Source: Carnobacterium viridans (GTDB taxonomy: Bacteria; Bacillota; Bacilli; Lactobacillales; Carnobacteriaceae). From it: 64,000 nucleotides of DNA. The stretch covers positions 1,612,001 through 1,676,000 of the forward strand of contig NZ_FNJW01000008.1 in NCBI RefSeq assembly GCF_900102725.1. The letters run 5' to 3'. Position numbers and translations under genes: made by a program. The notes beneath the pieces are model-generated. The model had not been told where the DNA came from. It did not search any database and was given only the letters and a program-made list of their open reading frames with translations. Of the stretch, positions 3,015 through 24,843 are shown one piece after another (positions within the stretch are counted from its first letter, which is position 1; each line of letters opens with the position of its first letter).

Positions 3015-4859
3015 ATGAAGAAAAAAATCACTTTTTTTCAATCTATTGATTTCAAAATAATTTTCGTGTTCATTATTCTAATATTAGTGGCATTAGAATT
3101 AATTGGAACGTATTTTGTTAGACAATTAGAAACACAGCTAGTCACTAATTTCCAAGAAGAAAAAAAACTTCAAGTAGGTTTTTTAGATAATACTATTCAA
3201 CCTATTTTATTTGATGATGAGACAGCAGAAGATAGTACCGAGATTGAACGGTTAATTGAAGATTTCTCAGGAAATGGAATTTTAGAAGTTCAGATCATTG
3301 ACGCCCAACATTATTTATTAGGAACGAGCGACAGCACGCAGCAAAATAGTGTTGGTAGTAAAACAAATGACAAGGATGTTCAACAAGCATTACTGCTGGG
3401 AAATACAGTCACCAGCCAATACAGAGATCAAACGACCAACGACCGAATCTGGAAGTTGGTTTCTCCTATTATTGCAGGTGATGGCTCAAATGAAATATTG
3501 GGTGTAATAGCATTAACGACAAATATCGAAAGTGTCTACGAACAAATCAGCGAAATAACGCTCATTTTTCTTAATTCTTCCTTGATAGCAGTCGCATTAA
3601 CCGTTATTTTAGCGCTGTTTATTTCCCGGGCAATAACAAAGCCAATCACTGAAATGACACAACAAACGATTCAAATGGCGGATGGAGATTATTCAGGACA
3701 AGTTAAAGTCTATAGTAAAGATGAACTGGGTATCTTATCTATGGCAATCAATGATTTGTCAACTAAGGTTGAAGAAGCTCAAGAAACGACTGAATCTGAA
3801 CGGAGACGTTTAAATAGTGTGCTGACCCACATGACAGATGGGGTTATCGCTACAGACCGAAGAGGAGTCATTGTTATTATTAATGACAAGGCTATGGAAA
3901 TGTTGAATATTTCCCAGGAAATGGCGCTAGGTGTTTCAATTTTAAAAGTATTAAAAATAGATAAAGAATATACATTGCGCAAATTACTTGAAAATGAAGA
4001 TGATATGTATTTTGATTTTTCAAATGATGAGATGCCAGTAACTTTGAGAGGTGAGTTTACTCTTATTCAAAGAGAAACTGGGTTTATCAGTGGAATTGTT
4101 TGTGTATTGCATGATGTAACAAAGCAAGAAAAAATAGAAAATGAACGAAAAGAGTTTGTGTCAAATGTTTCTCATGAACTTAGAACACCTTTAACAAGTA
4201 TGAGAAGTTATCTGGAGGCGTTACTTGATGGTGCATGGAAAGACCCGGAAATCGCTCCGCAATTTTTACAAGTAACACAAGAAGAAACAGATCGTATGAT
4301 TCGGATGATCAAAGATTTGTTAGATTTATCTCGTATGGATTCTGGTAAAGGTTCGCTGGATTTAGAATACCTTAATGTAAATGAGTTGTTTGATCATGTC
4401 ATCAAACGTTTTGAAATGATGATACAATCCTCTGACAAATCAACAAAAGATTTTTTAATCAAACGAAACTTTACGGATAGACAATTATGGGTTGAAGTGG
4501 ACGCTGATAAAATGATTCAAGTTTTAGATAATATCATGAATAATGCTATTAAATATTCTCCAGATGGAGGAACGATCACCTGTGGACTAATGGAAACAAA
4601 TGATAGCGTCGTTTTGAGCATTAGTGATGAAGGTCTTGGTATTCCAAAAAGAGATCTTGCAAATGTATTTGATCGTTTCTTTAGAGTAGACAAAGCTAGA
4701 GCACGCTCAATGGGTGGAACTGGATTAGGTTTAGCCATTTCTAAGGAAGTGGTTCAACAACATAAAGGTAAGATATGGGCAGAAAGTACGGAGGGAAAAG
4801 GAACGACTTTTTATATTTCACTGCCTTATCTTCCGTATGAGGAGGATGATTGGGAATGA
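3015..4859 (+). CDS. walK: WalK (YycG) sensor histidine kinase
   Basis: 614 residues. Two membrane helices (about 13-33 and 182-203) enclose an extracytoplasmic sensor domain. They are followed by HAMP (about 204-255), PAS (about 260-370), HisKA with His387 in the SHELRTPL motif, and a HATPase with N, G1 (DEGLGIP) and G2 (GGTGLGLAI) boxes. It phosphorylates WalR in response to cell-wall state. Its TGA stop overlaps the ATG of yycH (ATGA), so the two are translationally coupled. Confidence 0.98.
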   Translation: MKKKITFFQSIDFKIIFVFIILILVALELIGTYFVRQLETQLVTNFQEEKKLQVGFLDNTIQPILFDDETAEDSTEIERLIEDFSGNGILEVQIIDAQHYLLGTSDSTQQNSVGSKTNDKDVQQALLLGNTVTSQYRDQTTNDRIWKLVSPIIAGDGSNEILGVIALTTNIESVYEQISEITLIFLNSSLIAVALTVILALFISRAITKPITEMTQQTIQMADGDYSGQVKVYSKDELGILSMAINDLSTKVEEAQETTESERRRLNSVLTHMTDGVIATDRRGVIVIINDKAMEMLNISQEMALGVSILKVLKIDKEYTLRKLLENEDDMYFDFSNDEMPVTLRGEFTLIQRETGFISGIVCVLHDVTKQEKIENERKEFVSNVSHELRTPLTSMRSYLEALLDGAWKDPEIAPQFLQVTQEETDRMIRMIKDLLDLSRMDSGKGSLDLEYLNVNELFDHVIKRFEMMIQSSDKSTKDFLIKRNFTDRQLWVEVDADKMIQVLDNIMNNAIKYSPDGGTITCGLMETNDSVVLSISDEGLGIPKRDLANVFDRFFRVDKARARSMGGTGLGLAISKEVVQQHKGKIWAESTEGKGTTFYISLPYLPYEEDDWE

Positions 4860-10521: not shown

Positions 10522-11001
10522 TTGAACATCAAAATAATAACTGTGGGTAAGTTAAAAGAAAAATATTTGAAAATGGGTATTGCAGAATACGCTAAGAGAT
10601 TATCAGCTTATTGTAAAATGGAATTAATTGAAGTTCCAGACGAAAAAGCACCTGAAAAATTAAGTGAAGCTGAAATGGTGCAAGTTAAAGAAAAAGAAGG
10701 CGAGCGTATTTTAGCAAAGATTCCAGATCAAGCATTTGTTTTTGCGTTAACTATTGAAGGCAAACAACGTACTTCAGAAGAATTTGCAAAAGAAATTGAA
10801 CAACTAGGTGTTCAAGGGAAAAGTACCATTGTTTTTGTGATAGGTGGGTCATTAGGGTTAAGCGATGCAGTAATGAAAAGAAGCAATACACCTATTTCCT
10901 TTGGAAAAATGACACTACCTCATCAATTGATGCGATTAGTTTTAATTGAACAGATCTATCGTGGCTTCAAAATTGTTCGGAATGAACCGTACCATAAGTA
11001 A
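10522..11001 (+). CDS. rlmH: RlmH, 23S rRNA pseudouridine1915-N3-methyltransferase
   Basis: 159 residues from a TTG start 8 bases after AGGAGG. It is a SPOUT-fold methyltransferase that methylates Psi1915 of 23S rRNA; family motifs include [10 protein letters not shown], the knot region [16 protein letters not shown] and the C-terminal [10 protein letters not shown]. It corresponds to orfX, the SCCmec target in staphylococci. Its last 18 bases (GAACCGTACCATAAGTAA) recur three times downstream, so this 3' end is an SCC-type attachment site. The encoded C terminus is intact. Confidence 0.97.
10984..11001 (+). repeat. att site A: SCC-type core at the 3' end of rlmH
   Basis: GAACCGTACCATAAGTAA, the last five codons and stop of rlmH, followed by ATGAGGTTTT. 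It is the chromosomal side of the att array and resembles the staphylococcal SCC core (GAAGC(A/G)TATCATAA). Confidence 0.85.
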
Positions 11002-11083
11002 ATGAGGTTTTAGTTGCTTATCAAAAGAATACTAATAAACTATAGTGTTTGAGGAATAAAGTTTTTTTATGAGAGGTGCGCAA

Positions 11084-12538
11084 ATGAAGAAAGAAGAAGA
11101 TATAGTTAAATTAAAAGAAATTCTATATCACAATTTTAATGATTATAATAATCTTGAAGTCATAGAAGTTGCTACTAAATTAAATAAACTGATAAGTCTC
11201 GGAAAAGACTCTTTAAAAAATAAATATAAAGGAGCTTTTATAGATACTTTAAAATTTCTATCTGAAGCAGAGTATTTACAAAAAAATTATGAATCTTGTT
11301 TAAAGCATATAAAACAACTTAAACTTAGTGAGTTTTATAAAAAGGAACCTATTAGTACAGTTAGACATGCGACTATTAGAGGATTTCAATGTGATGTTTT
11401 TTTAGGAATTTATCAAAATAACTTTGGAAAAATTAATATTGTAAAAAAAGAATTAATTGAATATGGAGATATTAACAGATCTGAGTTAGAGGTAAATTTA
11501 AAGGATGATTATGATAAGATACTTGATTTAGCTAGCTCGTTTTTAAATAATTCAATTAAAACGATAGTTAATTTTAAATTGCCATATAAAATAGATATTT
11601 CAGAAGATGAAGAAGTTATATATGAATATAAGGACATACAATTTAGTTTAAAATTTAAGACAATCAATAATATCACACAAGTACCATTTGAAGCTACTAA
11701 CGGAGTGATAGAACTTGATAGAGATAAATATGGGGTATATTCATGTAGTGATTTAATGTTGACTTTTAATAAATTCTTTGATGCGACTCATTATATTAAT
11801 GAATTATTAGCTCTATGTTCTGAATCATTTAATTATTTTTTAGATTATTATAAGACAACTACAAAATATTATTGGATAGACAATCTAAATTTATCGCAAA
11901 TTCAAGTATCAAACGTAAAGGTAATCTCAGAAAAATATGATGATATAATATCAATTCCTTTTTACTCTGGACAGAGCATTTTATTTTCTGATAAGCCAAG
12001 TTATATTACCCAAGAAAAATTTAGCGAATTAAAAGACAGTCTTATTAAAGGGCAAGAACTTCCACTATGGAAAGTATTATACCTGGATGCAAAGAATAAT
12101 ATGTTTATAGAAAAATATAAGGAAGCAGTAATATCAATAAATTCTGCGTTCGAAAATTATTTGAATATAAAATCAAGGGAGATACTTAGAAGTGGAATGA
12201 CTGATATAGAAGTTGAAGCTTACTTACAAGGAAAAGTATCCTATACAACATATTTTTTAAAAGATTTTATTAAAGAAGAAGATTTCAATAAAGCCATTGA
12301 GCAAGGAATAATAGGTTTGCATTCTCCTAGTACTTTTCAAATCATAAAAAAGTGTTTTAATTTAAACGATAACAATAGGATTACTACAAGTAAGAGTAAG
12401 ATAAATGGACTAGTCAATAATATAAGAAAAAATAGAAACGACATAATTCATGGAAATATAATACTAATAAAAGATATTGAATCCGATGCTAAAAAATCAA
12501 TAAATTCATTTGAAGAATTCATTAATGTGTTTCAGTAG
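11084..12538 (+). CDS. Large protein with C-terminal HEPN-like domain (putative defence RNase)
   Basis: 484 residues from the ATG at 11084, which has GAGAGGTG 5 bases upstream (an ATG at 11069 overlaps it). Very AT-rich. Residues 1-120 are helical and possibly TPR-like; the middle is not recognised. The C terminus (about 330-484) has a HEPN-like pattern: a helix with YLDAKNNMFIEKYKEAV, then the Rx4H motif R451-N-D-I-I-H456 followed by GN. HEPN proteins are often RNases of toxin or abortive phage defence systems. The next gene carries the same motif. It is first in an att-bounded segment. Function is inferred from the motif and the context. Confidence 0.6.
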   Translation: MKKEEDIVKLKEILYHNFNDYNNLEVIEVATKLNKLISLGKDSLKNKYKGAFIDTLKFLSEAEYLQKNYESCLKHIKQLKLSEFYKKEPISTVRHATIRGFQCDVFLGIYQNNFGKINIVKKELIEYGDINRSELEVNLKDDYDKILDLASSFLNNSIKTIVNFKLPYKIDISEDEEVIYEYKDIQFSLKFKTINNITQVPFEATNGVIELDRDKYGVYSCSDLMLTFNKFFDATHYINELLALCSESFNYFLDYYKTTTKYYWIDNLNLSQIQVSNVKVISEKYDDIISIPFYSGQSILFSDKPSYITQEKFSELKDSLIKGQELPLWKVLYLDAKNNMFIEKYKEAVISINSAFENYLNIKSREILRSGMTDIEVEAYLQGKVSYTTYFLKDFIKEEDFNKAIEQGIIGLHSPSTFQIIKKCFNLNDNNRITTSKSKINGLVNNIRKNRNDIIHGNIILIKDIESDAKKSINSFEEFINVFQ

Positions 12539-12634
12539 ATTAATTTAATAAAAATAATTACTTCTAGGAGTAGGAAACAGTATCATAAGCAATGATAAAA
12601 TTTTAATAATCTAAATTTAAAGGCTGGAGATACT

Positions 12635-14029
12635 ATGGATAAAAATAAGCTTACTGGAGAATTTGAAATTGAGGCAAAATGGTTTTCAGATGATTCTAAA
12701 AATGCAGAGTATGGAATATTAAAATATTCGCAAAATAGTATTGTTGTGGAGTTGCCAGATAGCGATATGGAATTTGATAGAAAATTTAGAACAGTAATAG
12801 GTGAAAATCAAAAAAATATAATAAGTTTATTTAATGTGCGAGTTATTAGCGAATCGAACAAATATTTAAATAAAACTAAATTACTTGCTGACTTTATGTT
12901 CATCGATAAAAAGGCAATTGATAGTTTGGAAGACTTTAAAATTGATTCAATTCAGTGGTCAACTGATAACTTACCACTTTTTCTAAATGATAGTGCTTGG
13001 GAAGGTTTAAGTGAAGGAGAAGGTGTTAAATATTCTGAAATTCCAAAGAGAGAGTACAAGATTCAAAATTTAGATGCGACCATAAGTATTAACTATTCAT
13101 ATATTACTAAGTCACAAATAACGTCGGAAGGTCTAGTTAATACATTTAAAACAATACCATACTTTAGCATTAAATATAGTAAAGTAAAAAGTATACTTGA
13201 AATTAAAGAAGATGTACAAAAAATTTGTAATTTAATTTGTATACTAAGTGGTGCTCCTCAAGTGATAAGTACGTTCAAATATAGTTCAACGGAATATGAT
13301 TTACTAGGCAAAAAAATGCCAGTAAAGAGTCAATTTTATTTTAGTCAAGGAATCCCTTCCCAAAAAAAGTATCAGAAAATTGTCTCTGCCTATAAGTTTG
13401 ATTTAATTGCGGATAATTTTGGTGATATTTTATCAAAGTATTTCGAGGAGCATGGGAAGCTACAAGCTATAATTCAACACTTAACTCTGCTAATTTCTTA
13501 TAAAAATTTACTTGAGTCTAGTTATGTAGATGCAATTACTAGTTTAGAAGCATTTCATACGGAATTGTATGGTGATGATAAAAAAATTACTCTCTTTACC
13601 CAAGATATTATTATGAAATTAAAAGCAGAGACTAAAGAAGCATATAAAGATAAAAAGGGAAATGAAAAAGATGAAGAAGCTATTCTATTAACATACATTA
13701 AAAAAGTTAAAAAGATTACGCTTAAAGAACGATTAGTTGAATTATTTGATTTAACTCCTGTTAAACTAAAACAAAATTTTAAACATCATAAAATTAACTT
13801 TCTTATAGATGAAGATAAAAATGAATTTACGCGTAAATCTGTAAAGACTAGAAATCATCTTGCACATGGAAATAGTCAAATAATATTTACTTTTGATGAA
13901 ATGTTAAGCGCCACCTATATATTATCAATGATTGCAGAATGCTGTTTGATGAAAAGAATAGGTTTGGATGAAGAATTAATAACGGAAGGTATATTTAATA
14001 CTAGAATCTATAGAAACTATATTAAGTAG
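12635..14029 (+). CDS. ApeA-like HEPN protein, putative anti-phage defence
   Basis: 464 residues; GGCTGGAG precedes the ATG. The N-terminal half is beta-rich (LTGEFEIEAKWFSDD, YGILKYSQNSIVVELP), matching the layout of the ApeA N-terminal domain. The C-terminal half has a helical segment (SSYVDAITSLEAFHTELYG) and the Rx4H motif R406-N-H-L-A-H411 followed by GN, as in ApeA-type HEPN domains. ApeA is a known single-gene phage defence protein thought to act as an RNase. It lies 96 bases after the other HEPN gene, same strand, in the SCC-like segment. Assignment to the family is likely; activity is inference. Confidence 0.7.
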   Translation: MDKNKLTGEFEIEAKWFSDDSKNAEYGILKYSQNSIVVELPDSDMEFDRKFRTVIGENQKNIISLFNVRVISESNKYLNKTKLLADFMFIDKKAIDSLEDFKIDSIQWSTDNLPLFLNDSAWEGLSEGEGVKYSEIPKREYKIQNLDATISINYSYITKSQITSEGLVNTFKTIPYFSIKYSKVKSILEIKEDVQKICNLICILSGAPQVISTFKYSSTEYDLLGKKMPVKSQFYFSQGIPSQKKYQKIVSAYKFDLIADNFGDILSKYFEEHGKLQAIIQHLTLLISYKNLLESSYVDAITSLEAFHTELYGDDKKITLFTQDIIMKLKAETKEAYKDKKGNEKDEEAILLTYIKKVKKITLKERLVELFDLTPVKLKQNFKHHKINFLIDEDKNEFTRKSVKTRNHLAHGNSQIIFTFDEMLSATYILSMIAECCLMKRIGLDEELITEGIFNTRIYRNYIK

Positions 14030-14145
14030 CTTTATAATTCTGAACAAATAAGCTTTCAAAAAATGAAAATTATTGGTTAATTAGTTATCTACAGAGAAAC
14101 ACTTATTAAATATAAAAAAGGCAAATAATAGTAAAAAATAGATGT

Positions 14146-14151
14146 TATAAT
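14146..14151 (+). promoter_or_regulatory. Extended -10 promoter for the lipoprotein gene
   Basis: TGTTATAAT gives a TGn-extended -10 (TATAAT at 14146-14151), about 85 bases before the lipoprotein start; no good -35 is visible. Confidence 0.45.
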
Positions 14152-14236
14152 ATATTTATTAAAACCTAAACAATTCAAATCTATTTTAAGAGCGGTTACA
14201 ACATGAAATTCGTATAGAAAAAAGGGGGAAAAATTA

Positions 14237-15241
14237 ATGAATAAAGTTTTTTGGTTGGTTTTGAGTGTTGCAAGTGTGTTGGGTGCTTGCTCTACCGATA
14301 AGGTTGATAATGATGGTCAAAATAGCAGTTCAAATGCTGTTGCAACGGAAGAAGTATCAACAACTGAAACAAACAGCGTGGATGAAAATTATAAAGTATA
14401 TTCTATAAATAGTTTGGAGTATTCAATTCCTGAAAGTTGGACGGAAGAAGTATCTGATGAAAACCTGAAATACTATTACCCTGAAGATGGTATGCTAATG
14501 GTTAGTTATTCGGAGACAGATGGAACTATTTCCAATAGTGTATCAAGAGCGAGTTTCGTAGAGGGCTTTACTTCTAATCTTGAATCATTCGATATAATTT
14601 CGGAGACAGAAATAACCGTAGGAGGTAAAACAGCATACCAGTACAATTTGAATAATGAAGTATCCAACGAAGAGTATGAAACTTCTGTAGTTATTTTTGA
14701 TTATTATGATGGAATAATTAGCTTAGTTATGACAAAGGCATCAAATTCAGACGAAGATTATAGCAATGAATTTGAAAACATACTTAGTTCAATAGAACTT
14801 ACAGATGAAGTTGATGAAGAGGTAGAGGAAATAGTTGAGGAGTCTGCTGGAAAAGAGATTGTCTTAGGAGAACCTATAGAATTAGGAGAATACACATTAA
14901 CCATTCAAAAATATAGCCTTGGTGTAGATTATGAAGGAGATAGTGCTTTAATCATTGAATATGACTGGGTCAATAATTCGGAAGATTCAACTTCCCCGTT
15001 CATGACATTCATGTTAAAAGGGTTTCAAGATGATGTTGAAACTGATGATGCAATTATGGTTGAGGGTGTAGATTTAGGAGTTGGACAAAAAGAAGTAAGA
15101 CCTAGTGGGGTAATCGAAGGTGCTCAGAGCACGGTTGGTATATCTGATACAACTAAGCCGCTAGAATTGGAATTAGATGAACTATTCTCATTAGATAGTA
15201 ACCCTTATATAGCGGAAATTGATCTATCCACGTTAGAATAA
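14237..15241 (+). CDS. Lipoprotein with PsbP-like and DUF5067-like domains
   Basis: 334 residues. A signal peptide ends in the lipobox LGAC (Cys near residue 19), then an acidic Ser/Thr/Glu linker. Residues about 50-190 resemble PsbP/DUF1795-type folds (SLEYSIPESWTEE... KTAYQYNLNN...). After an acidic bridge, residues about 210-334 resemble DUF5067 (IELGEYTLTIQKYSLGVDYEG...ALIIEYDWVNNSE). It should be anchored on the outer face of the membrane. The role is unknown. It is the last gene of the first SCC-like segment and has its own promoter and terminator. Confidence 0.75.
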   Translation: MNKVFWLVLSVASVLGACSTDKVDNDGQNSSSNAVATEEVSTTETNSVDENYKVYSINSLEYSIPESWTEEVSDENLKYYYPEDGMLMVSYSETDGTISNSVSRASFVEGFTSNLESFDIISETEITVGGKTAYQYNLNNEVSNEEYETSVVIFDYYDGIISLVMTKASNSDEDYSNEFENILSSIELTDEVDEEVEEIVEESAGKEIVLGEPIELGEYTLTIQKYSLGVDYEGDSALIIEYDWVNNSEDSTSPFMTFMLKGFQDDVETDDAIMVEGVDLGVGQKEVRPSGVIEGAQSTVGISDTTKPLELELDELFSLDSNPYIAEIDLSTLE

Positions 15242-15302
15242 CTTAAATAAAAAAGCCCCACTCCCTACCAACAAATAAGAAGTGTCAAGCAAAAATAACA
15301 CC

Positions 15303-15347
15303 CCAATAATAAGGCTATTTATGTATCCTATTATTGGTTTTTTTTTG
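15303..15347 (+). terminator. Terminator after the lipoprotein gene
   Basis: Stem CCAATAATA (15303-15311) / TATTATTGG (15329-15337), followed by nine T. Confidence 0.85.
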
Positions 15348-15470
15348 CATGTGTTAATAGAATGAATTGAGTATGGATAGTCTCCCTTAATTAGACAGCT
15401 CCGTTAAGATCATATAAACATTATCAAACAAAGGCAATTATTAAAAAACCTCACTTAGGTATAACACGGA

Positions 15471-15488
15471 GAACCGTACCATAAGTAA
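15471..15488 (+). repeat. att site B: copy of the rlmH end
   Basis: GAACCGTACCATAAGTAA, identical over 18 bases to the end of rlmH although no rlmH-coding sequence precedes it. AACCTCACTTA 24 bases upstream is complementary to the flank after the core. Confidence 0.85.
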
Positions 15489-15576
15489 AGGAGGTTTTCC
15501 TAGAAACCACAGCTTGTTATGTTGGGGGCATTTTTAATAATTGATAAAAATTATATTTTTCTTGGGAGGATTATAT

Positions 15577-16725
15577 TTGAATAGATTAGACTTATATAAG
15601 AAGCCTATTTTATTACGTACTTTTATTACGAATGATGATGAACACAGTGACGAAGAATATAAAACTTATTCACGTGCAGTAGAAGATGTTGAAATTAATA
15701 ATGATAAATTTAAAAAAGATTCTGAGTTTTATGAAATTATCAAAGAAATGATTTTTGAGGTTGATGAAGAAGATAGACCGTTTCTTTATATTATCTGTTA
15801 TACATTTAATAGTTCATATAATAGCCTCGAGGTAGCAGCTCTAATGAAGACATCAGTTGAAGGATCAAAAAATGAAATAGACAGAACAATACTTCATGAA
15901 TTAGCTATGTCGGTTATTTACAATATACCTATCTTTCCTAATCACGAGAATTTGGAAGAGGAACTGGGTCTTTATTATAACGAATTATATAAACATGGTT
16001 TTGAATTAATAGATAAAAACGAAAAGGTAAAAAAATATAAACTTGCTGATATTTTAATTCCAAATTTTGAAAATCAAAAGGATGATTTGTCAGAAGAAAA
16101 AATACCACGGATATATTCATATAGCGAAGTAAATTTTTATAAGAATAAATTAATGGAAAAATTAAAGAATTTTGATAATGCACAATATATAATAAATAAC
16201 TTGAAAGATGGAATTGAAAAGTTATCAGATCAGTTAAACAGCCCTGAAAGAAATGAGAATAAGATTCAAAAAATATTAACAAACTATCCAATTCTATTTG
16301 GAACAGAATATACTGAAGTATTAGATAAGCAGAGTTTTGGATCAGAATATGAAGCTGATTATGTTTTGAAAAGGTATAATGGACTTTATGATATTGTTGA
16401 AATCGAAGCAAGCACATTAAATATTTATACTAAACAAGGTAATCCGTCTAGCCAACTGGTGCACGCAGAGCAACAAATAATGGACTGGTTAGAGTGGATT
16501 GAACATAATAGCTCATACGCACGAGAAAAAATTAAAAAACTATACTCACCAAAGGGCTATGTTGTCATTGGAAGGTCGAATACTTTAACAAGAAGTAATA
16601 AAGAAAAGCTAAGAAGAAGAAACTTAGTTTTTAGAGATAAAATCGAAATAATTACATATGACGACTTATTAGAAAACGCTAAATTATTATTAGATTTTTT
16701 AAGTGGTAACAAAATAAAAAAATGA
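15577..16725 (+). CDS. Shedu-like (SduA/DUF4263) nuclease, anti-phage defence
   Basis: 382 residues from the TTG at 15577, which has GGGAGGA 6 bases upstream; an earlier TTG at 15541 has no such site. The C-terminal third is a PD-(D/E)xK-like nuclease of the DUF4263/Shedu family: Asp261 in EADYVL, E275-I-E277 in DIVEIEAS, then GNPSSQLVHAEQQIMDWLEWIE, the Q-bearing helix. The N-terminal half is not recognised and probably senses or oligomerises. Shedu is a single-gene phage defence system. It is the only gene in the second SCC-like segment. The EIE in place of the classic ExK occurs in this subfamily as I recall it. Confidence 0.8.
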   Translation: MNRLDLYKKPILLRTFITNDDEHSDEEYKTYSRAVEDVEINNDKFKKDSEFYEIIKEMIFEVDEEDRPFLYIICYTFNSSYNSLEVAALMKTSVEGSKNEIDRTILHELAMSVIYNIPIFPNHENLEEELGLYYNELYKHGFELIDKNEKVKKYKLADILIPNFENQKDDLSEEKIPRIYSYSEVNFYKNKLMEKLKNFDNAQYIINNLKDGIEKLSDQLNSPERNENKIQKILTNYPILFGTEYTEVLDKQSFGSEYEADYVLKRYNGLYDIVEIEASTLNIYTKQGNPSSQLVHAEQQIMDWLEWIEHNSSYAREKIKKLYSPKGYVVIGRSNTLTRSNKEKLRRRNLVFRDKIEIITYDDLLENAKLLLDFLSGNKIKK

Positions 16726-16732
16726 TTAAATT

Positions 16733-16766
16733 TACTGAATATATTGTCATAATATATTTCAGTGTA
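16733..16766 (+). terminator. Hairpin after the Shedu-like gene
   Basis: ACTGAATATATT / AATATATTTCAGT around a GTCAT loop. It has no long T run after it, so termination is uncertain. Confidence 0.4.
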
Positions 16767-16936
16767 TCGTTGCAATAGACAAAGGAGTTAGTAATTTCCT
16801 GTAAAGGGTGGACGCGAGTTTTACGATCGAGAAATTGCATACCCCTGACAAGGAGTTTCAATATCGCTTACATATTTTAATTGAGCAATATCTAAGTGTC
16901 TAAACACTGAAAAACCTCATTTAGATGAAGTTCGGA

Positions 16937-16954
16937 GAACCGTACCATAAGTAA
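16937..16954 (+). repeat. att site C: copy of the rlmH end
   Basis: GAACCGTACCATAAGTAA again, with AACCTCATTTA upstream and ATGAGTTTTTTT downstream as imperfect inverted repeats. Confidence 0.85.
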
Positions 16955-17014
16955 ATGAGTTTTTTTAAACATAGTTAAATCTGGGGTGAATGACCTAAAG
17001 GATGAGGTGAATTA

Positions 17015-17308
17015 ATGAAATTTAATAAAACAAAAGATTCTTTAATTATCACAAAAAAACATATCCCTTTTTTACCAACGAAAATTGGGAATGAACTTCC
17101 GTCAGAAATTATTGCGCGCTTTGAACTTTATCCAGAAAATATACGACGACCTGTCAACAAGACTTTGTTTAGAAATGAGTACTTTGAATTAAGATATAAT
17201 ATGAAGACAAAAGATTTAGCTATATCATCCAGAGGAGATATTGTCTATTCAGCTATCCCATATGATACAGCTAGAAACTACATCCAACGTGCAGCTATTC
17301 AGTACTGA
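17015..17308 (+). CDS. Short ORF, probably the 5' part of the metallophosphoesterase gene
   Basis: 97 residues with GATGAGGTG before the ATG; no family recognised. It ends at a TGA (17306-17308), but the same frame stays open for 11 more sense codons straight into the ATG of the next gene (17342). The joining codons read as ordinary protein (LHPEEVREYIK). The simplest view is one gene of about 570 codons broken by an in-frame TGA; a two-protein operon is the alternative. Confidence 0.55.
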   Translation: MKFNKTKDSLIITKKHIPFLPTKIGNELPSEIIARFELYPENIRRPVNKTLFRNEYFELRYNMKTKDLAISSRGDIVYSAIPYDTARNYIQRAAIQY

Positions 17309-17341
17309 CTCCATCCAGAAGAGGTACGTGAGTATATTAAA

Positions 17342-18730
17342 ATGCATAAAGGTAATTTAGAAAAATACATTAAATTGAGTATGTTTCAAGTTACTAATAA
17401 AAGGATGGGTAAAAACAATAGTGAAGTTAAACAAGCTTATAATGCAATATTTCAAAATACATTATTTGAGATTCAAATTCTTGGGCGACTTCTGCAGCAT
17501 GACGAAACTGGACCGATTTCTGCAAATATTGCAGGTAAATTCTTATTTAGTGAGAATGTAAACACAGGAATTTCTGAGTATGTTTTCGAATACCTTAAAT
17601 TTGTCGTTCAACTCGCTAATTCGTTACCCATAACAACGGATGGAAAAAGAGTTGAATTGTTAGAAAAAAATCAGTTAAAGAAAGTTTTTTCTAATAATAG
17701 AAATAAAGATGAGTTTTTAACCTATAGATCAGACATTAAACCAGCATTGAGTTTCATGCCTCAAGAATTAAAGATAAGTTTAGAAAATTCAATTATCATT
17801 GCAAAACAATCTCAGTCTGTAAAATTAAAACCTATTTTACGATCAAAATCAGAGAAGAAAATTTCTAATCTTAGAAAAAATTATATTCCGCATAGTGTTC
17901 ATCCTAAAGATACAGAAGAACACTTTGAAAATGTTCTTTCTACAGAGAATACAAATTTATTGAATGTTATCTCTGATGTTCACTCTAATGACGGAAAGCT
18001 GCCATTCTTCAACAAAAATTTCAATATAATGGTAGGAGATATCTCGGACTCTAAAGTAACAAACGGAGATATTAAAGGGCTCTACGTTATTGGAAATCAT
18101 GAATTAGTAGATGTATTGCCGAGTAGTAGACAAGAACTTCAAGAAAAAAAGTGGAAACCATTTCTGAGAACCAAATGGTTTAAACAGCTTTTAGAAAATC
18201 CCGATGAGTCGTGGTACATGTTGCCTGTGGGCAATCATACATTTTATGAGGTAGTGAAGGATGAGCTTGAACAACGATTCCCACGAATAAACATATTGCA
18301 TAATAGTCATATAGTTCATGAAGGAATACGATATATCGGGATCACAGTACCAGTTGTTTTAGTTAAGAGAAAGAAAGAGCAACAAAAATTTATTCTCAAA
18401 ACTTTAAAAAATTTACTGAACAACGATTATGATATTCCAACGGTAATCGTTTCACATGCACCACTGTTTAACGAATTGAATATGGTCTCAATGAAGAGCA
18501 AAGTATATAACAATGAATATAATTGTTCAGAACCTAATATTGAAGAATTATTTAAGGAATATAACATAATTGGAGCTATACATGGTCATCATCATATACC
18601 AGCATCGTCTGGACGAAGCAAAGTTGTGCACTTTGCAGGCAAAGAGCTCTTTGTGGTTTGCTCAATTTATTCTAAAATGAATACAGGATTTGAGTTAATG
18701 AATCTGATAAGATCTAAGCAATCAAACTAA
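17342..18730 (+). CDS. Calcineurin-like metallophosphoesterase (5' end interrupted)
   Basis: 462 residues. The C-terminal half has the full metal site of the metallophosphoesterase fold: SDVH, MVGDISD, IGNHE, VSHAP and IHGHHH, with spacing typical of the family. The first 200 residues are helical and unrecognised. The ATG at 17342 lacks a clear ribosome site, and the frame continues upstream through a single TGA into the 97-residue ORF. It could be a phosphodiesterase or nuclease. Such enzymes occur in phage defence loci, and its place in an SCC-like segment beside a Shedu-like gene fits that, but this is inference. Confidence 0.75.
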   Translation: MHKGNLEKYIKLSMFQVTNKRMGKNNSEVKQAYNAIFQNTLFEIQILGRLLQHDETGPISANIAGKFLFSENVNTGISEYVFEYLKFVVQLANSLPITTDGKRVELLEKNQLKKVFSNNRNKDEFLTYRSDIKPALSFMPQELKISLENSIIIAKQSQSVKLKPILRSKSEKKISNLRKNYIPHSVHPKDTEEHFENVLSTENTNLLNVISDVHSNDGKLPFFNKNFNIMVGDISDSKVTNGDIKGLYVIGNHELVDVLPSSRQELQEKKWKPFLRTKWFKQLLENPDESWYMLPVGNHTFYEVVKDELEQRFPRINILHNSHIVHEGIRYIGITVPVVLVKRKKEQQKFILKTLKNLLNNDYDIPTVIVSHAPLFNELNMVSMKSKVYNNEYNCSEPNIEELFKEYNIIGAIHGHHHIPASSGRSKVVHFAGKELFVVCSIYSKMNTGFELMNLIRSKQSN

Positions 18731-18759
18731 AAAAAGAATTTATTGAAATTTCATACAGA

Positions 18760-18942
18760 ATAGTGCTTGTTTTTTGTTGTCGAGAATGTAATAGTATTTT
18801 AAATAAAAACATTGGAAAACTACCTAAAATTAGGGACGAACACGATTGAAGCCTGGTGAAATTATTTAAACGAAATGGGAGTCTATCAAATAAATGGATT
18901 CGGTACTTATGAGATGATTTAAGATGTTTGTTAATCAATTAA
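18760..18942 (+). pseudogene. Degenerate coding remnant with Cys cluster
   Basis: One frame reads CCRECNSILNKNIGKLPKIRDEHD, a stop, then SLVKLFKRNGSLSNKWIRYL, a stop, then DDLRCLLIN before TAA. The residue composition is protein-like despite two in-frame stops, which suggests a decayed gene. No family was recognised; the Cys spacing hints at a zinc ribbon. Confidence 0.3.
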
Positions 18943-18966
18943 ATGCGAATGATGATTTGAAGGAAT

Positions 18967-19014
18967 AAAAAAATATAAGCATGTTGGCAACAGCCAACAT
19001 GCTTATATTTAAAA
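18967..19014. terminator. Long bidirectional terminator
   Basis: An 18-bp perfect stem (18971-18988 / 18993-19010) around AACA, with A and T runs on both sides. It ends the minus-strand VOC gene. Confidence 0.9.
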
Positions 19015-19025
19015 TAGTAGAAAAA

Positions 19026-19406
19026 TTATTTTGCGCGTTTTACTTCAATCCGATAGCCATCAGGGTCCGTCACAAAGAAATAAGAGGGTGTGCCTCCTGA
19101 AAGCCCTCTTAAATCACCTGTTTGGTAAGCAGAAGATTTACAAACTTCATGCATTTTTTCTAAGTCACTAACAGTCACACCTAAATGACTGAAGCCGTCT
19201 CCTACATTGTATGGCTCAGCATCGTAATTGTAAGTGAGTTCAATTTGTACAGAAGAACCAGGAGAATTCAGATAAACTAAATCAAATTTATCTTCAGGGA
19301 ATTCTCTGCGACTGGCAATTTCAAAATCAAATAGATTAGTATAAAAGTCTAAAGTAGCTTCAATATCTCTAACACGCAGGCAAATCTCAACAAGTTCTTG
19401 TTTCAT
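19026..19406 (-). CDS. VOC-family protein, glyoxalase I-like
   Basis: 126 residues from the ATG at 19406; GGAGG lies 11 bases upstream, while the ATG at 19424 directly abuts that site. The vicinal oxygen chelate fold is clear: ICLRVRDIEATLDFYTNLF, the metal ligand region FSHLGVTVSDLEKM, and a C-terminal YFFVTDPDGYRIEVKRA. It matches lactoylglutathione lyase-type proteins that detoxify methylglyoxal, though other VOC roles such as antibiotic binding remain possible. It is inside the third att-bounded segment, opposite in direction to its neighbours. Confidence 0.85.
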   Translation of the reverse strand: MKQELVEICLRVRDIEATLDFYTNLFDFEIASRREFPEDKFDLVYLNSPGSSVQIELTYNYDAEPYNVGDGFSHLGVTVSDLEKMHEVCKSSAYQTGDLRGLSGGTPSYFFVTDPDGYRIEVKRAK

Positions 19407-19632
19407 AATAATATCATCCTCCAATAGTTTCTTATTTTATTCTAGCATGAATAGGTCATATAGGCACGCCCATGTTATTTTCTATAGTGCTTTCTATTAC
19501 CTCGATAGGCAAAAAGAACAGAGTTTAATCTGATAATAGGAGCATTCATTGACAAAAATATATTCTACAAAGAAATAGTTGGTAAACTAAATGAATTAAC
19601 GAAATAAACAAAGTTTGTTAAAGGTGTTGAGA

Positions 19633-19650
19633 GAACCATATCATAAGTAA
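19633..19650 (+). repeat. att site D: diverged copy of the rlmH end
   Basis: GAACCATATCATAAGTAA differs from sites A-C at two positions and is closer to the staphylococcal core (GAAGCATATCATAA). It would be the outer right end of the island. Confidence 0.75.
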
Positions 19651-19689
19651 AAATAAAAATTTAGTTAGTTAAATAGGAGGAAAAATAAA

Positions 19690-20439
19690 ATGAGGATGAA
19701 ATTTGACCCAAGTAATCCTATTATCCAGCTCTGTATGAAAGGGATGGCTCTAGAAGAAAGTGGAAATTTGGATGATGCCATCGAAGCTTTTATTGAAGCA
19801 TGGAACCAAACAAGTGACGACTATGAAAGATTTATTGCAGCTTATCATTTAGGATTAAGACAAAATAATGTCGACGATAAGTTAAAATGGATGGAAAAAT
19901 CATTGGCCCTGGCTCTAAAAATTAATGATGATGATGTTAAGAGTGCTTATCCAACTTTATATTTAACTATCGCTAAATGTTATGAAGCAATGAATGATAC
20001 TACAAATGCTAGAAAAAATAGTGAATTGTTTCATTCATGTCAAGGTAGACCGACTGACGCTGGTCCTTTTTATCATGGGTCAAAGGCAGATTTGCAAGTT
20101 GGCGATTTGCTAACAGCGGGTAAGAAATCAAATTACGAAAAAGATCTTAAAATGAACCACATCTATTTCACAGCAAATATCAATGGTGCGGGACTTGCTG
20201 CAGCATTATCAAAAGGTGAAGGAATAGAACATGTTTATATCATAGAACCTACCGGTGAATTTGAAAACGACCCTAATGTAACTGACAAGAAATTCCCTGG
20301 TAACCTAACACGTTCTTATCGCTCCCAAAACCCTCTAAAAGTTTTGGGAGAAGTAACAGATTGGGAAAAACTGACTCATTCAGAACGACAGGAATGGGAT
20401 GAAAGATTAGCTAAGAATAAAGGGGAGATTATTAACTAA
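19690..20439 (+). CDS. arr: Rifampin ADP-ribosyltransferase (Arr) with N-terminal TPR-like domain
   Basis: 249 residues; AGGAGG precedes the ATG. Residues 1-115 form TPR-like helices (GMALEESGNLDDAIEAFIEAW; AYHLGL). Residues about 125-230 match Arr closely: FYHGSKADLQVGDLL, NHIYFTAN, IEPTGEFENDPNVTDKKFPG, RSYRSQNPL and GEVTDW. His129, Tyr159 and Asp199 line up with the catalytic residues known in Arr. Arr uses NAD to ADP-ribosylate rifamycins and so inactivates them. Classic Arr is about 140 residues, so the N-terminal repeat domain is an addition. It starts 40 bases past att site D. Confidence 0.9.
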   Translation: MRMKFDPSNPIIQLCMKGMALEESGNLDDAIEAFIEAWNQTSDDYERFIAAYHLGLRQNNVDDKLKWMEKSLALALKINDDDVKSAYPTLYLTIAKCYEAMNDTTNARKNSELFHSCQGRPTDAGPFYHGSKADLQVGDLLTAGKKSNYEKDLKMNHIYFTANINGAGLAAALSKGEGIEHVYIIEPTGEFENDPNVTDKKFPGNLTRSYRSQNPLKVLGEVTDWEKLTHSERQEWDERLAKNKGEIIN

Positions 20440-20518
20440 AATTAACTATCATAGCAGTGCAACGGATGAGTAGTTATTTAGCATTCACGATTTTTACACT
20501 GTAATGAAAACTAATAAA

Positions 20519-20565
20519 GACGGAGATAATCCATTGTTAAATGATGGCTTATCTCCGACTTTTTC
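20519..20565 (+). terminator. Terminator after arr
   Basis: Stem CGGAGATAA (20521-20529) / TTATCTCCG (20549-20557) then ACTTTTT. The rest of 20566-20773 is gene-free and AT-rich with nothing else recognised. Confidence 0.85.
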
Positions 20566-20773
20566 TGCTGTTATTGATATAAATCATTTAGGATTTTAGT
20601 ACAATAATGCATATATACGGTATAAATATTGAGAATAATTAAAGTAAATTATACTTGTGAACAGAGTTTTGCAGATACCCTAGAAATATAATTAAGTTTA
20701 GTGATAAACTAACAGTCAATTGTAATTATTAAGTATGATATTTTTGATTTACTATTTTAGGGGGAGAAAGAGA

Positions 20774-21412
20774 ATGGGATTTATTGTTAATAAATTGATA
20801 TTAATTGTATCGTTAGGGTTGGTGCTAGGTGCTTGTTCTGCAGCAACTGACATGGAAGAAAGCTCAGAGAATACAACAGATGAGGCTGTAGAGGCAGTTG
20901 AAGAAACTGAAGAAAAAAGTATTGTAGCCGATGAAATGACAACAACTTTTTATCCAGAAGTAACTAGATTAAGACATCTTACCGAAGAAGACCTGGAGTG
21001 GTACGATATCATTATAACTAGATTAAATGCTATAGATGATTTCTCAGGTGATCGGGAGACTGTATACGAGATAGCTGAAGAATACGGAGAAGATCCTGAA
21101 GAGTTATATTTTGATTGGTTAGAGATTTGGGATGCAAAAGTGCATGGTGATAATGGGAATTATGCTATTTTGTCAGAGGCTTATAGTAAATTAACTACTG
21201 AGATTATTGAAAAAAACATCGTGGGGGAAAAAATCGAACATTCTAGCAGTAGATCTAGTTTAGATGAGGGAAATTTAACTACCTTTGTACAGCACGAGCT
21301 AGACGTAGATGGAGAACTTTATGAAGTTGCTTACGTGATTGAACACAGAGATGATTATAAAATTGCGGAAATAATTGAGTTTAGTGTTAATGGAGAAAAG
21401 ACAGATTTATAG
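20774..21412 (+). CDS. Lipoprotein of unknown function
   Basis: 212 residues from the ATG at 20774, which follows GGGGAG; an in-frame ATG upstream (20735) would spoil the signal peptide. The lipobox is LGAC, followed by a strongly acidic linker (about 25-60). The rest has no recognised domain. Its signal peptide and acidic linker resemble those of the lipoprotein at 14237, so both may belong to the same type of accessory surface protein. No function is proposed. Confidence 0.65.
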   Translation: MGFIVNKLILIVSLGLVLGACSAATDMEESSENTTDEAVEAVEETEEKSIVADEMTTTFYPEVTRLRHLTEEDLEWYDIIITRLNAIDDFSGDRETVYEIAEEYGEDPEELYFDWLEIWDAKVHGDNGNYAILSEAYSKLTTEIIEKNIVGEKIEHSSSRSSLDEGNLTTFVQHELDVDGELYEVAYVIEHRDDYKIAEIIEFSVNGEKTDL

Positions 21413-21560
21413 ATAGAGTATGTTTAGTTATGTTCGTTGTAGCTGTTTTAATGCATCAATAAGAATTTTAGTATAAGTAAATGCAAAGGCTAAAATTTGG
21501 GCATATTGGTGCATGAGTAGTATGATGAAGTTACGAATAAATTTTATGAGGAGTGGTAAG

Positions 21561-22349
21561 ATGACAGCATATGAATTACCAAAAGTGTGGCAGTGGGAAG
21601 AAGAGAATTCAAAAAAAGGTGGCAATCGTCCAACAGCTGGGAGTCGTTTCGAACAAAAATTACCAGTTGGAGATGCTCCGTTTCAACTCTATTCATTAGG
21701 AACACCGAATGGCATTAAAGTTACAATTATGTTCGAAGAGCTGAAAGAGTTGGGTGCGGAAGGCGCAGATTATGACTTATATACTATCAATATTGGCGAA
21801 GGGGACCAATTTGGTTCAGATTTTGTTGAGATCAATCCTAATTCTAAAATTCCAGCTCTTGTTGATCAAAGTCAAAGTCCTCGTTTGGATATTTTTGAAT
21901 CAGGTTCTATTCTTCTTTACTTAGCGGAGAAATTTAACCAACTCATTCCGACAACTATTCACGGTCGGACTGAAACTCTTAATTGGTTATTCTGGCAAAT
22001 GGGAGCAGGTCCTTATGTTGGTGGAGGATTTGGCCACTTTTTCGCTTATGCTCCTGAGTTTATGAAATACCCGATTGATCGCTTCACGATGGAAACGAAA
22101 CGTCAGTTAGATTTATTAGATAAAACTTTAGCACAACGACCTTATATAGCAGGTAATACCTATACCATCGCAGACATTGCTATCTGGTCTTGGTACGGAC
22201 GTTTAGCTTTAGGAAAATTATATGAAGGATCATATGAATTTTTGAATCTAGATGAATATACCCATCTCTTAGAATGGTCTCAGCGCATTGCAGAACGACC
22301 AGGTGTTCAAAAAGGTCTGGCAGCAGAGTCTCAATCAATTAAAGAATAG
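21561..22349 (+). CDS. Glutathione S-transferase family protein, YghU-like
   Basis: 262 residues from the ATG at 21561, 7 bases after GAGGAG. A YghU-type start (YELPKVWQWEEENSKKGG, SRFEQKLPVGDAPFQLYSLGTPNG) leads into a thioredoxin-like domain with NPNSKIPALVD and ESGSILLYLAEK, and a helical C-terminal GST domain (NWLFWQMGAGPYVGGGFGHF). E. coli YghU is a glutathione-dependent disulfide reductase. The enzyme may use glutathione or another thiol. It is monocistronic as far as can be seen. Confidence 0.92.
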   Translation: MTAYELPKVWQWEEENSKKGGNRPTAGSRFEQKLPVGDAPFQLYSLGTPNGIKVTIMFEELKELGAEGADYDLYTINIGEGDQFGSDFVEINPNSKIPALVDQSQSPRLDIFESGSILLYLAEKFNQLIPTTIHGRTETLNWLFWQMGAGPYVGGGFGHFFAYAPEFMKYPIDRFTMETKRQLDLLDKTLAQRPYIAGNTYTIADIAIWSWYGRLALGKLYEGSYEFLNLDEYTHLLEWSQRIAERPGVQKGLAAESQSIKE

Positions 22350-22543
22350 TTTGTATCATATTTTATTACTTTAGGGTTTTAACAATCTATTTTGATTAAA
22401 AAGAAATAAACAATCAGCACTGTATTATAATAAACAAGACAACAATAAATTATCACCAATACTAGGATTCTCTATAAATACCTTGCAAAAATAATTTATT
22501 ATAGGTAGATTTAAGTTACACTTGAGGTATGTAATAGATAAAA

Positions 22544-23287
22544 ATGTTTATGATAGTAGGGTTTGTATTGAGAAAAAAAGCACTAAAGATTCAGTTAACG
22601 AGTTGGATTTTCCTCTTAACTGCAACTGCAGGATTTATGAACGTTGTAACGATTATTTTATTTTCAGCTACTAGCTCCCATCATACGGGGAGTTTATCAA
22701 ACAGTATGATTCATTTAGTAAAAGGGGATTTCGAGGGTTTTATTCGTTTGATAATCGTTATACTAGCCTTTTTCTTAGGAACGATGTTGAGTGGATTCCT
22801 ATTTCCAGAACAGGTCTTTAAATTGAAACGTCGGTATGGTTATATTCAACTCTTATCCGGTTTAGCGATTTTAGTGGGAAGCATTATGCTTAAGGATCCT
22901 TGGTGGCGTTTGCTAGAGACAACCCTGATTTTAGGTCTGCAAAATGGTATGTTTGTCTATTATAAAGGGATGATTGTTCGTACGACACATATGTCTGGAA
23001 ACCTAACTGATGCTGGTTTGGCTTTAGGTAGAAGTTTAGCAGGACGAAAATCCGAGTTATGGAAGGCCCGTTTCCAACTACTAAATCTCAGCTTCTTTCT
23101 ATTAGGTAGCATAGTTGGTGCCGGCTTATTGCTATATACTAACGTTGATATTTGGCTTGTAGCAAGTAGCTTATACCTCTTTCTTGGTCTCTTATATTTC
23201 TCATTGTATCATCACGTCAATTACGTAAAATCAACCCATGATGAATTTGAAATAAACGGAAAAAACTTATTTGATTATTTAAAATAG
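22544..23287 (+). CDS. DUF1275 (YoaK-like) membrane protein
   Basis: 247 residues at most. The DUF1275 signature TATAGFMNVVTIILF...HHTGSLSN and later RTTHMSGNLTDAGLALG are present, with about six membrane helices. The function of the family is not settled; it is sometimes annotated as a permease. The start is uncertain: the ATGs at 22544 and 22550 have only a distant GAGG, and a TTG at 22568 is possible. A small inverted repeat (GGACTAC ... GTAGTCC, 23331-23367) follows. Confidence 0.85.
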   Translation: MFMIVGFVLRKKALKIQLTSWIFLLTATAGFMNVVTIILFSATSSHHTGSLSNSMIHLVKGDFEGFIRLIIVILAFFLGTMLSGFLFPEQVFKLKRRYGYIQLLSGLAILVGSIMLKDPWWRLLETTLILGLQNGMFVYYKGMIVRTTHMSGNLTDAGLALGRSLAGRKSELWKARFQLLNLSFFLLGSIVGAGLLLYTNVDIWLVASSLYLFLGLLYFSLYHHVNYVKSTHDEFEINGKNLFDYLK

Positions 23288-23373
23288 ACTTAGATTGGAT
23301 TGTCTACACTAAACTGTACAAAATTTATATGGACTACGACCTGAAGTCAAAAGGACTCTTGTAGTCCATCCAA

Positions 23374-23414
23374 ACAAAGAACCCCTCGCATTTTACTGTG
23401 AGGGGTTCTTTGTT
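23374..23414. terminator. Bidirectional terminator before fabV
   Basis: Stem AAGAACCCCTCGCA / TGTGAGGGGTTCTT with flanking A and T runs; it can end both converging genes. Confidence 0.9.
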
Positions 23415-23435
23415 TATTTATAGAGTCACAACTGC

Positions 23436-24632
23436 TTAATAGTGTAGTGCTTTTAATTCTTCTATAGTAACATCTTGATCAACATAGCCATCAACCATAA
23501 AGCCACTTAAATTTGAAAATTCTTTATAAAAGATGTCGTAAGCTGTCAGATTAGAATTGAAATTTTCTTCATTTAATTTTAGGATAAGTTCCTTCGTTTT
23601 AGCCTGAGTATCGCTGTCAAGTTCCCAGTTATCAGGTCTAAGACGGCCCACTTCATCGTATTCAGGCTTGTTGCCATAAATCATTTCTCTATAAATGCGG
23701 TCTTGATGCATAATTGGTGTTTCATGGGTGCCTTTATCTGCCATCACTTTGTAAAGACCGATACAATAAACAGGGAAAAAAGGAATAACTGAACTTGCTT
23801 TAGTGGTAACTGCAGTAGCGACTACAATCTGAGCTTTGCCGTTTATGTCAGCTAGTAACTCATTAATATTGTTTGTCTTTTCATCACAATCTGCTTTAGC
23901 CAGGCCAAGTGTACCACCACCATAGTAAGAATGGTTAAGCTCTGTTCCTAAATAAGAATAATTAGTTGTTAAGACGCCATCAGCTAATACGTCTGCTTCT
24001 TTTAGTGCTTGCATCCATAGTTCCCAGTCTTCTCCGCCCATTACCTTTACAGTATTAGCGATTTCCTGTTCAGTTGCAGGTTCCAGAGTTTCAGTATAGT
24101 AAGTCTGGTTTTGCATATTAATATTAGGTCCAACTACGGGCTCTCCAATGGCTTTAATCGAAGAAGTATATGTTTCTCCAGTAGTAGGATCTGTTCTTCG
24201 ACCACTTGCCAGACTGTAAACGACTAAGTCTACTTTACCGCCAAATTCGTTCTTTATATAATCGATGACTTCTTGCTTGCTTTCGTGGCTGAAAGCGTCT
24301 TGAACAAAGTTTTTAGCAATCAGACCTTCTTTTTCAGCGGCTTCTCGAAAAGCAATATTATTGTACCAGCCAGCTGTACCTAAATTCTTTTCGTTCTTTG
24401 GACCCTTTTCAAAAGAAACGCCAATTGTATCTGCTCCAGTACCGAAAGCTAAGCTGATTCGGGTAGCTAAGCCGTAGCTTGATGATGCGCCAATGATCAA
24501 TACTTTTTTTGGACCTTCATAAGTTCCTTTGCCTTTTACATAGTCAATTTGATTCAATACTTCCTGTTTGCATCCAAGTGGATTTATACCTAAAGCTACA
24601 TTTCCACGAATATTTTGTTTGAATTCCATCAT
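23436..24632 (-). CDS. fabV: FabV, trans-2-enoyl-ACP/CoA reductase (NADH)
   Basis: 398 residues, close to the usual FabV length of about 400. The nucleotide-binding loop is GASSSYGLATR and the catalytic Tyr237-x8-Lys246 motif is present (SYYGGGTLGLAK), as are SLASGRRTDP and NPLGCKQ. It reduces the enoyl group in the last step of fatty acid elongation; FabV is known for insensitivity to triclosan. ATGGAGGA precedes the start. It sits apart from any other fab gene here, so it may be an extra or substitute enoyl reductase. Confidence 0.96.
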   Translation of the reverse strand: MMEFKQNIRGNVALGINPLGCKQEVLNQIDYVKGKGTYEGPKKVLIIGASSSYGLATRISLAFGTGADTIGVSFEKGPKNEKNLGTAGWYNNIAFREAAEKEGLIAKNFVQDAFSHESKQEVIDYIKNEFGGKVDLVVYSLASGRRTDPTTGETYTSSIKAIGEPVVGPNINMQNQTYYTETLEPATEQEIANTVKVMGGEDWELWMQALKEADVLADGVLTTNYSYLGTELNHSYYGGGTLGLAKADCDEKTNNINELLADINGKAQIVVATAVTTKASSVIPFFPVYCIGLYKVMADKGTHETPIMHQDRIYREMIYGNKPEYDEVGRLRPDNWELDSDTQAKTKELILKLNEENFNSNLTAYDIFYKEFSNLSGFMVDGYVDQDVTIEELKALHY

Positions 24633-24843
24633 AATTAATTTTCCTCCATTAAATCGTTATAAGAATATCATATCAGAAAAAGCTTCTTATGAGAAATTAC
24701 TTATCAAAATTTCACATCAAAGTTACGTACCTGTGTTCATCACTCAATAGGTAAAATGGAATGGTTGTATAGTATTACTAAAAATAAAAAAGATTTGGTA
24801 GTAAGATAGTGATTATGGTAACTACTAGATAAATGTAAGTTTC

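Follow-up and report, generated by a model that had tools for sequence, protein, structure and literature searches.

An array of five small units follows the 3′ end of rlmH in Carnobacterium viridans. It is very probably an SCC-like composite (positions 10984-21481 of the 64,000-nucleotide stretch analysed here, which we call the window), made up of ccr-less cassettes placed by recombinases of the Ccr family that acted in trans or have since been lost. The array is a real, well-delimited member of an element family that has already been described, not a new kind of element. A match to rlmH was present in 18 of 18 genomes of the family. A pattern search of the window and of the 2.76-Mb genome found three exact copies of the 19-mer at the end of this gene (GAACCGTACCATAAGTAAA), at 10984, 15471 and 16937, and one copy with two changes, at 19633, all of them where an earlier note on this DNA had also placed the copies. 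The window thus holds four matches at up to three mismatches, against 0.04 expected; in the whole genome only these four occur at up to two mismatches, none of them beyond the array, and two isolated matches are added at three. The existence of the repeats and their rarity in the genome both argue for an SCC-like composite. As the earlier note had also described, the flanks of the two inner exact copies are inverted, with 0.67 (att 1) and 0.70 (att 2) of mirrored positions complementary, compared with only 0.30 at 19633 (att 3). The repeats look like SCC-type attachment sites: they repeat the RlmH tail in direct orientation, and their inverted arms, which are imperfect, have the GA of GAACC as their centre. 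The features of the region are as follows.

10522-11001, plus strand: rlmH, an intact open frame of 159 aa whose 3′ end is the target site.
10984-11002, plus strand: att 0, the rlmH copy, attL-like, without a clear dyad (sequence match, dyad test).
11003-15470, plus strand: unit 1, with a 489-aa protein (weak PADLOC match to PD-T4-5), an ApeA-like HEPN protein (12635-14029) and a DUF5067 lipoprotein (14237-15241); Pfam PF18862 (8e-19), PF18739 (2e-15) and PF16729 (3e-14), and PADLOC.
15471-15489, plus strand: att 1, an exact repeat copy with inverted arms (sequence match, dyad test).
15490-16936, plus strand: unit 2, Shedu SduA alone (gene 15577-16725; PADLOC SduA 1e-164, PF14082 6e-19).
16937-16955, plus strand: att 2, an exact repeat copy with inverted arms (sequence match, dyad test).
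16956-18730, plus strand: unit 3, a calcineurin-like phosphoesterase (metallophosphatase; PF00149 7e-7), with its right-hand site missing.
18731-19632, minus strand: unit 4, a glyoxalase (gene 19026-19424; PF00903 6e-20).
19633-19651, plus strand: att 3, a copy with two changes and no dyad (sequence match, dyad test).
19652-21462, plus strand: unit 5, a TPR-Arr protein, rifampin ADP-ribosyltransferase-like (19690-20439), and a lipoprotein (20735-21412); PF12120 1e-43.
21463-21481, plus strand: att 4, the decayed right end of the array, with five mismatches (congener comparison: site in G005, empty site in G010).
21513-22349, plus strand: gst-like core gene bordering the array, found after rlmH in 11 genomes.

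The extent of the array emerged from relatives, among them five congeners compared over 20 kb each, starting just upstream of rlmH. Over the 11 genomes, the distance from rlmH to gst ranges from 60 to 10,539 bp. At the lower end stands G010, which carries another genus label in the same family and in which the position 60 bp past rlmH is the tenth codon of the gst-like gene. Because this empty site is matched by the junction before gst, better kept in G005 and present in decayed form at 21463-21481 of the window, the array ends at about 21480. The earlier note had closed the array at 19650 and divided it into three segments; neither statement holds. Beyond 19650 lies another unit, with the TPR-Arr and lipoprotein genes, which extends to the decayed site beside the core gene, and the segment from 16955 to 19632 consists of a metallophosphatase unit and a glyoxalase unit, the site between which is missing from the window and kept in the relative G012. 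A single cassette reaching 19650 was also considered and was ruled out by the congener alignments. Comparing the rlmH regions of relatives, as the same note had proposed, yielded both an empty site (G010) and differing fillings; this combination, observed between the same core genes across the 11 genomes, favours the SCC-like composite. The glyoxalase gene lies 161 and 200 bp after rlmH in G004 and G005 and is absent from the G010 stretch. Given this absence and the sites on both of its sides, it is best seen as a unit of the array.

The units are very small (about 1.4 to 4.5 kb), and some of them carry anti-phage genes. Insertion is at the att site in the rlmH end and the array is flanked by direct repeats, of which the outer right copy is decayed; units 1 and 2 have rlmH-site repeats on both sides and contain no ccr detectable with PF07508 or by tblastn. 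We take the units of the window to be what are termed pseudo-SCC, or ccr-less, units of a composite island. That several such units are stacked at one rlmH end, the central proposal of the earlier note, is supported by the SCC-type sites and by the relatives with an empty or differently filled site. In unit 3 the gene is in two pieces (17015-17308 and 17342-18730) with an in-frame stop between them, and its counterpart in G012 (L137) is an open 571-aa frame between two sites. The cargo scan applied PADLOC and Pfam to 121 of 124 ORFs from 24 arrays, covering the top 25 families and using no control set, and we claim no enrichment of defence genes from it.

The symmetry of the sites was examined in 36 copies from 20 loci, picked by the 18-base core alone. 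The best dyad centre lies between the G and the A of GAACC, where 0.50 of mirrored positions are complementary versus 0.32 at the next best centre, and this agreement on one centre is a further argument for the SCC-like composite. A complementarity of 0.5 was reached by 17 of the 36 sites; the site at +3488 in G012 reached 0.89, and the rlmH copies themselves gave 0.27 at the GA centre (23 loci). For the tests on inner sites below, ten of the 54 matches to a site profile, mostly weak ones, were removed by hand, leaving 44; because all 54 give 0.49 at the GA centre and the 36 core-chosen sites 0.50, the dyad result is independent of this selection. The position of the centre suggests that crossover probably also occurs at the GA of GAACC, and if so, the rlmH codons after GA come from the cassette. 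Consistent with a cassette-supplied RlmH tail, the inner copies differ from their own rlmH end 3, 5 and 42 times at codon positions 1, 2 and 3, respectively (codons 2-5, 36 sites; nominal p 2e-13, the sites being not fully independent), and EPYHK-stop is still encoded in 32 of the 44 inner sites. This concentration of differences at third positions favours the SCC-like composite and supports, rather than proves, a tail supplied by the cassette, because the same pattern would result if the recombinase itself were selective at codon positions 1 and 2; a half-site comparison of these copies is biased, the sites having been selected by their right half. A third-position pattern inside such arrays may nevertheless serve as a sequence-only hint at repeated use of a site.

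No ccr gene was found in the host, as the earlier note had surmised, within the limits of PF07508 over the genome, the CcrB model and tblastn over the window. The two PF07508 matches of the genome are one 462-aa recombinase in two copies, neither in the array, which are separated from each other by about 34 kb and from rlmH, on the same contig, by some 790 kb. This recombinase scores 173 bits with the CcrB model, versus 475 bits for the true homologue in the congener G003, and tblastn with the CcrA and CcrB proteins of G003 gave nothing over 50 bits in the window. Since it holds neither ccrAB nor ccrC, the array is not SCC sensu stricto. The host copies, at G000:C8:2416750 and 2450939 (L001 and L002), are large serine recombinases with the same score; the genes around them look prophage-like, and the pair is perhaps a doubled or tandem prophage.

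The earlier note had also suggested looking for ccr genes elsewhere in Carnobacterium genomes, and the congener G003 (taken to be C. jeotgali MS3) carries such an element at the same site. In this 17.4-kb element, cch, ccrA and ccrB homologues stand in a row between rlmH-end repeats at +86 and +17440, an arrangement of the SCC/ECC type that again favours a Ccr-family origin for the window array. Its best NCBIfam matches are CcrA (3e-72), CcrB (2e-142) and Cch1 (4e-95), all under the curated cut-offs of the staphylococcal models. Proteins annotated as recombinase family protein in three Staphylococcus plasmid records share 41% identity with the CcrB of the element along 99% of the CcrB length. 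The element also holds a BstXI-like endonuclease and an N6/N4 methylase. Among the 18 family genomes, 17 have a CcrB-model match of some kind, mostly small resolvases; only that of G003 is both strong and near rlmH, and the next best (G012, 214 bits) lies far from rlmH.

Sites of this kind extend well beyond the family. Searching 88 loci, each for the rlmH 18-mer of its own genome and with up to three mismatches allowed (854 kb downstream and 695 kb upstream), we found 36 direct copies within 10 kb downstream, spread over 20 loci, one inverted copy in the same span, and two direct and no inverted copies upstream; 68 of the 88 loci had no downstream copy in the 10-kb span. Five of 93 loci were left out because the rlmH end was missing or under 3 kb was available downstream, and L022 and L139, which appear to be one genome, are both among the 88 (no match in either), one being dropped later. 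A 60-base profile at 16 bits gave 48 direct matches downstream in 27 of 87 loci, with eight more on the opposite strand; 685 kb of upstream sequence held no match. Because 24 of the sites that this profile finds had also been used to train it, the own-18-mer count carries the claim of spread. The loci with copies of their own 18-mer include Viridibacillus, Lysinibacillus, Caryophanon, Domibacillus, Metabacillus, Neobacillus, Ammoniphilus and a Clostridia MAG. Copies that are direct and downstream, as here, are those expected of the SCC-like composite, as is the position of the recombinases: at E<=1e-75 the CcrB model matched 46 of 398 sampled genomes of the class, and where the match shares a contig with rlmH (38 genomes), it lies within 40 kb downstream in 35 and within 40 kb upstream in none. 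These 35 genomes represent 21 genera and 14 families, and 28 are outside family label f17, which we take as the staphylococci because all nine genomes above the curated cut-off carry it. When the G003 proteins served as tblastn queries, two further loci, Bacillus sp. J37 and Domibacillus sp. PGB-M46, showed a strong CcrB-like gene close to rlmH, and Enterococcus lactis showed a weaker one.

Several observations count against the SCC-like composite: no such enzyme was found in the host, only the 17 sites reach 0.5, two sites of the window (att 3 and att 4) have decayed, the scores of the G003 proteins fall under the cut-offs, the metallophosphatase is no more alike between genera than gst, a tract shared with G002 runs over the array end, and Shedu relatives show no site at up to four mismatches. 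The strongest alternative, which we consider doubtful though it deserves weight, is that the row is what remains of one or two full ccr-bearing elements after deletion of ccr, so that the units were never separate ccr-less cassettes. The site missing between units 3 and 4, the two decayed sites, the interrupted gene of unit 3 and the existence of a full element in G003 would all fit such a history. However, an exact site bounds each of units 1 and 2 at either end, neither ccr nor cch has left a trace in them, and the sole scoring of remnants, tblastn of the window with the G003 proteins, stayed at or below 50 bits.

It is improbable that an integrase of another type that uses the rlmH end made the row. 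Recombinases opposite in orientation to rlmH and within about 310 bp of it (59-307 bp) do occur in 14 of the 35 genomes (for example, G600, G706 and G694), and they may be other element types at the same site; the congener enzyme, however, is of the CcrA plus CcrB type. Because these recombinases, too, reach E 1e-75 or better with the CcrB model, this alternative shades into placement by Ccr-family enzymes.

A slightly less probable alternative still is that one insertion made the repeats and that the content later changed through homologous exchange involving repeats or core genes, not through site-specific recombination. Homologous recombination does act here, because window positions 18911-24763 are 98.3% identical to G002, a different species whose rlmH is 92.9% identical, and the tract ignores the right end of the array; the tract suggests a recent homologous exchange and, crossing that end, was rejected as proof of cassette exchange. 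Against this alternative as an account of the row stand the empty site, the exact repeat borders, the dyad at most kept sites and the direct, downstream-only pattern in many genera. Finally, it is very improbable that the copies are dispersed transcription terminators, or rlmH-end DNA with some other function, and not attachment sites: their arms are inverted repeats ending in T runs, but some 30 bases separate these arms, part of the rlmH coding sequence lies within the repeat, and the copies coincide with changes in gene content and adjoin ccr elements.

Two units bear on movement between genera. The metallophosphatase unit also stands between two sites in G012, under another genus label, and is absent from the 91 other loci searched, and the glyoxalase gene beside rlmH in Amphibacillus is more alike at the DNA level (83.7%) than rlmH itself (68.7%); both observations speak for the SCC-like composite. 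The identity of the metallophosphatase unit with that of G012 (89.3%) was considered as proof of transfer and set aside, the core gene gst being about as alike (88.1%).

Under the favoured reading, a large serine recombinase of the Ccr family would insert units at the rlmH 3′ end through the dyad site, whose centre, and probably crossover, would be the GA of GAACC. Insertion would swap the last rlmH codons, from within the Glu codon, for the equivalent tail of the cassette, and each insertion would push older units outward and leave direct repeats. The enzyme may have come in trans from a ccr-bearing element like the one in C. jeotgali, or may have been lost later, and the cargo (Shedu, the ApeA-like HEPN protein and others) would ride as a passenger on units that may or may not be mobile at present. 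Work cited in PMC3783163 is described there as showing that CcrA/CcrB recombine attP with attP too, which would ease stacking.

The relation to known systems is close. The definition given in PMC7029136 lists, as criteria ii-iv of SCC sensu stricto, insertion at att in the rlmH end, flanking direct repeats, and ccrAB and/or ccrC, and its account of staphylococcal composite islands has 18-nt direct repeats (GAANNNTATCATAAGTRA) between stacked islands, several without their own ccr. With SCC, composite islands and pseudo-SCC, the window array shares the rlmH 3′ end as target (the kind of insertion site that also serves the resistance cassette of MRSA), the direct repeats and the inverted arms, but it differs in its Carnobacterium host, in the Tyr codon TAC in three of four copies, in its very small units, and in the lack of mec and of any ccr found in the genome. 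The Enterococcus cassette chromosome (ECC), as outlined in PMC6222049, comprises ccrAB elements at rlmH averaging 42 kb, with att sites of about 50 bp, inverted repeats in attR and the circle, and demonstrated circular forms; the rlmH target in Lactobacillales and inverted repeats at att sites recur in the window, whereas ECC carries ccrAB at an average of 42 kb and the window array carries none. In other Bacillota, the text of PMC10061031 describes rlmH islands with polymerase-SSB primases, tandem composites with conflict genes as cargo, whose second ends were located through their match to the final ~12 bp of rlmH; its table includes Trichococcus and Planococcus and its main text does not name Carnobacterium. 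These islands also lie downstream of rlmH in tandem, but that study follows elements with polymerase, helicase and recombinase. The novelty implied in the earlier note is accordingly smaller, with rlmH elements already described in print for Enterococcus (PMC6222049) and tandem rlmH islands for other Bacillota (PMC10061031); what stands is that a literature search reaching few subscription papers returned no report of a cassette chromosome recombinase, rlmH insertion or genomic island of this kind in Carnobacterium.

The present results extend ccrAB cassette chromosomes to Carnobacterium and add counts to the view, partly in print, of SCCmec as a branch of a Bacillota-wide rlmH system. Judged from sequence, the case that passenger cassettes are moved in trans is a fair one, and such movement becomes testable outside staphylococci because a candidate helper is found in one species and ccr-less units in another. 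A wider proposal, which we hold tentatively and would not yet favour over its negation, is that across Bacilli the rlmH end is an integron-like docking point, at which recombinase-less cassettes of one to three genes, a part of them carrying defence genes, travel among species and genera, moved in trans by the Ccr of visiting elements, each bringing a spare RlmH coding tail that is under constraint even when buried.

Individual cargo genes have their own distributions. Shedu matched in two of 395 genomes of the order, one being that of the window and the other G153, and at up to four mismatches no att site was present in the sequence examined around the two closest relatives (G153 and a Planococcus record); the best sites at the G153 locus have five mismatches, at 2839, beside the right end of Shedu, and at 3604, farther away. 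The Planococcus sp. MB-3u-03 record (L174, NZ_CP025133.1), a 1,329-bp linear 'plasmid', holds little beyond a Shedu gene that shares 81% identity with the window gene. The idea that this record is unit 2 excised as a circle was rejected, the record being linear and having a best att-core match of six mismatches, joined ends included. TPR repeats fused to a rifampin ADP-ribosyltransferase (Arr) domain, as at 19690-20439, are themselves cassette cargo. The gene is also present in G002 and G005, in the latter together with the lipoprotein gene and beyond the glyoxalase, and at 61% in G004, elsewhere near rlmH. Downstream of rlmH in Desemzia incerta (L138) there are two glyoxalase copies, the first matched over residues 27-132 only.
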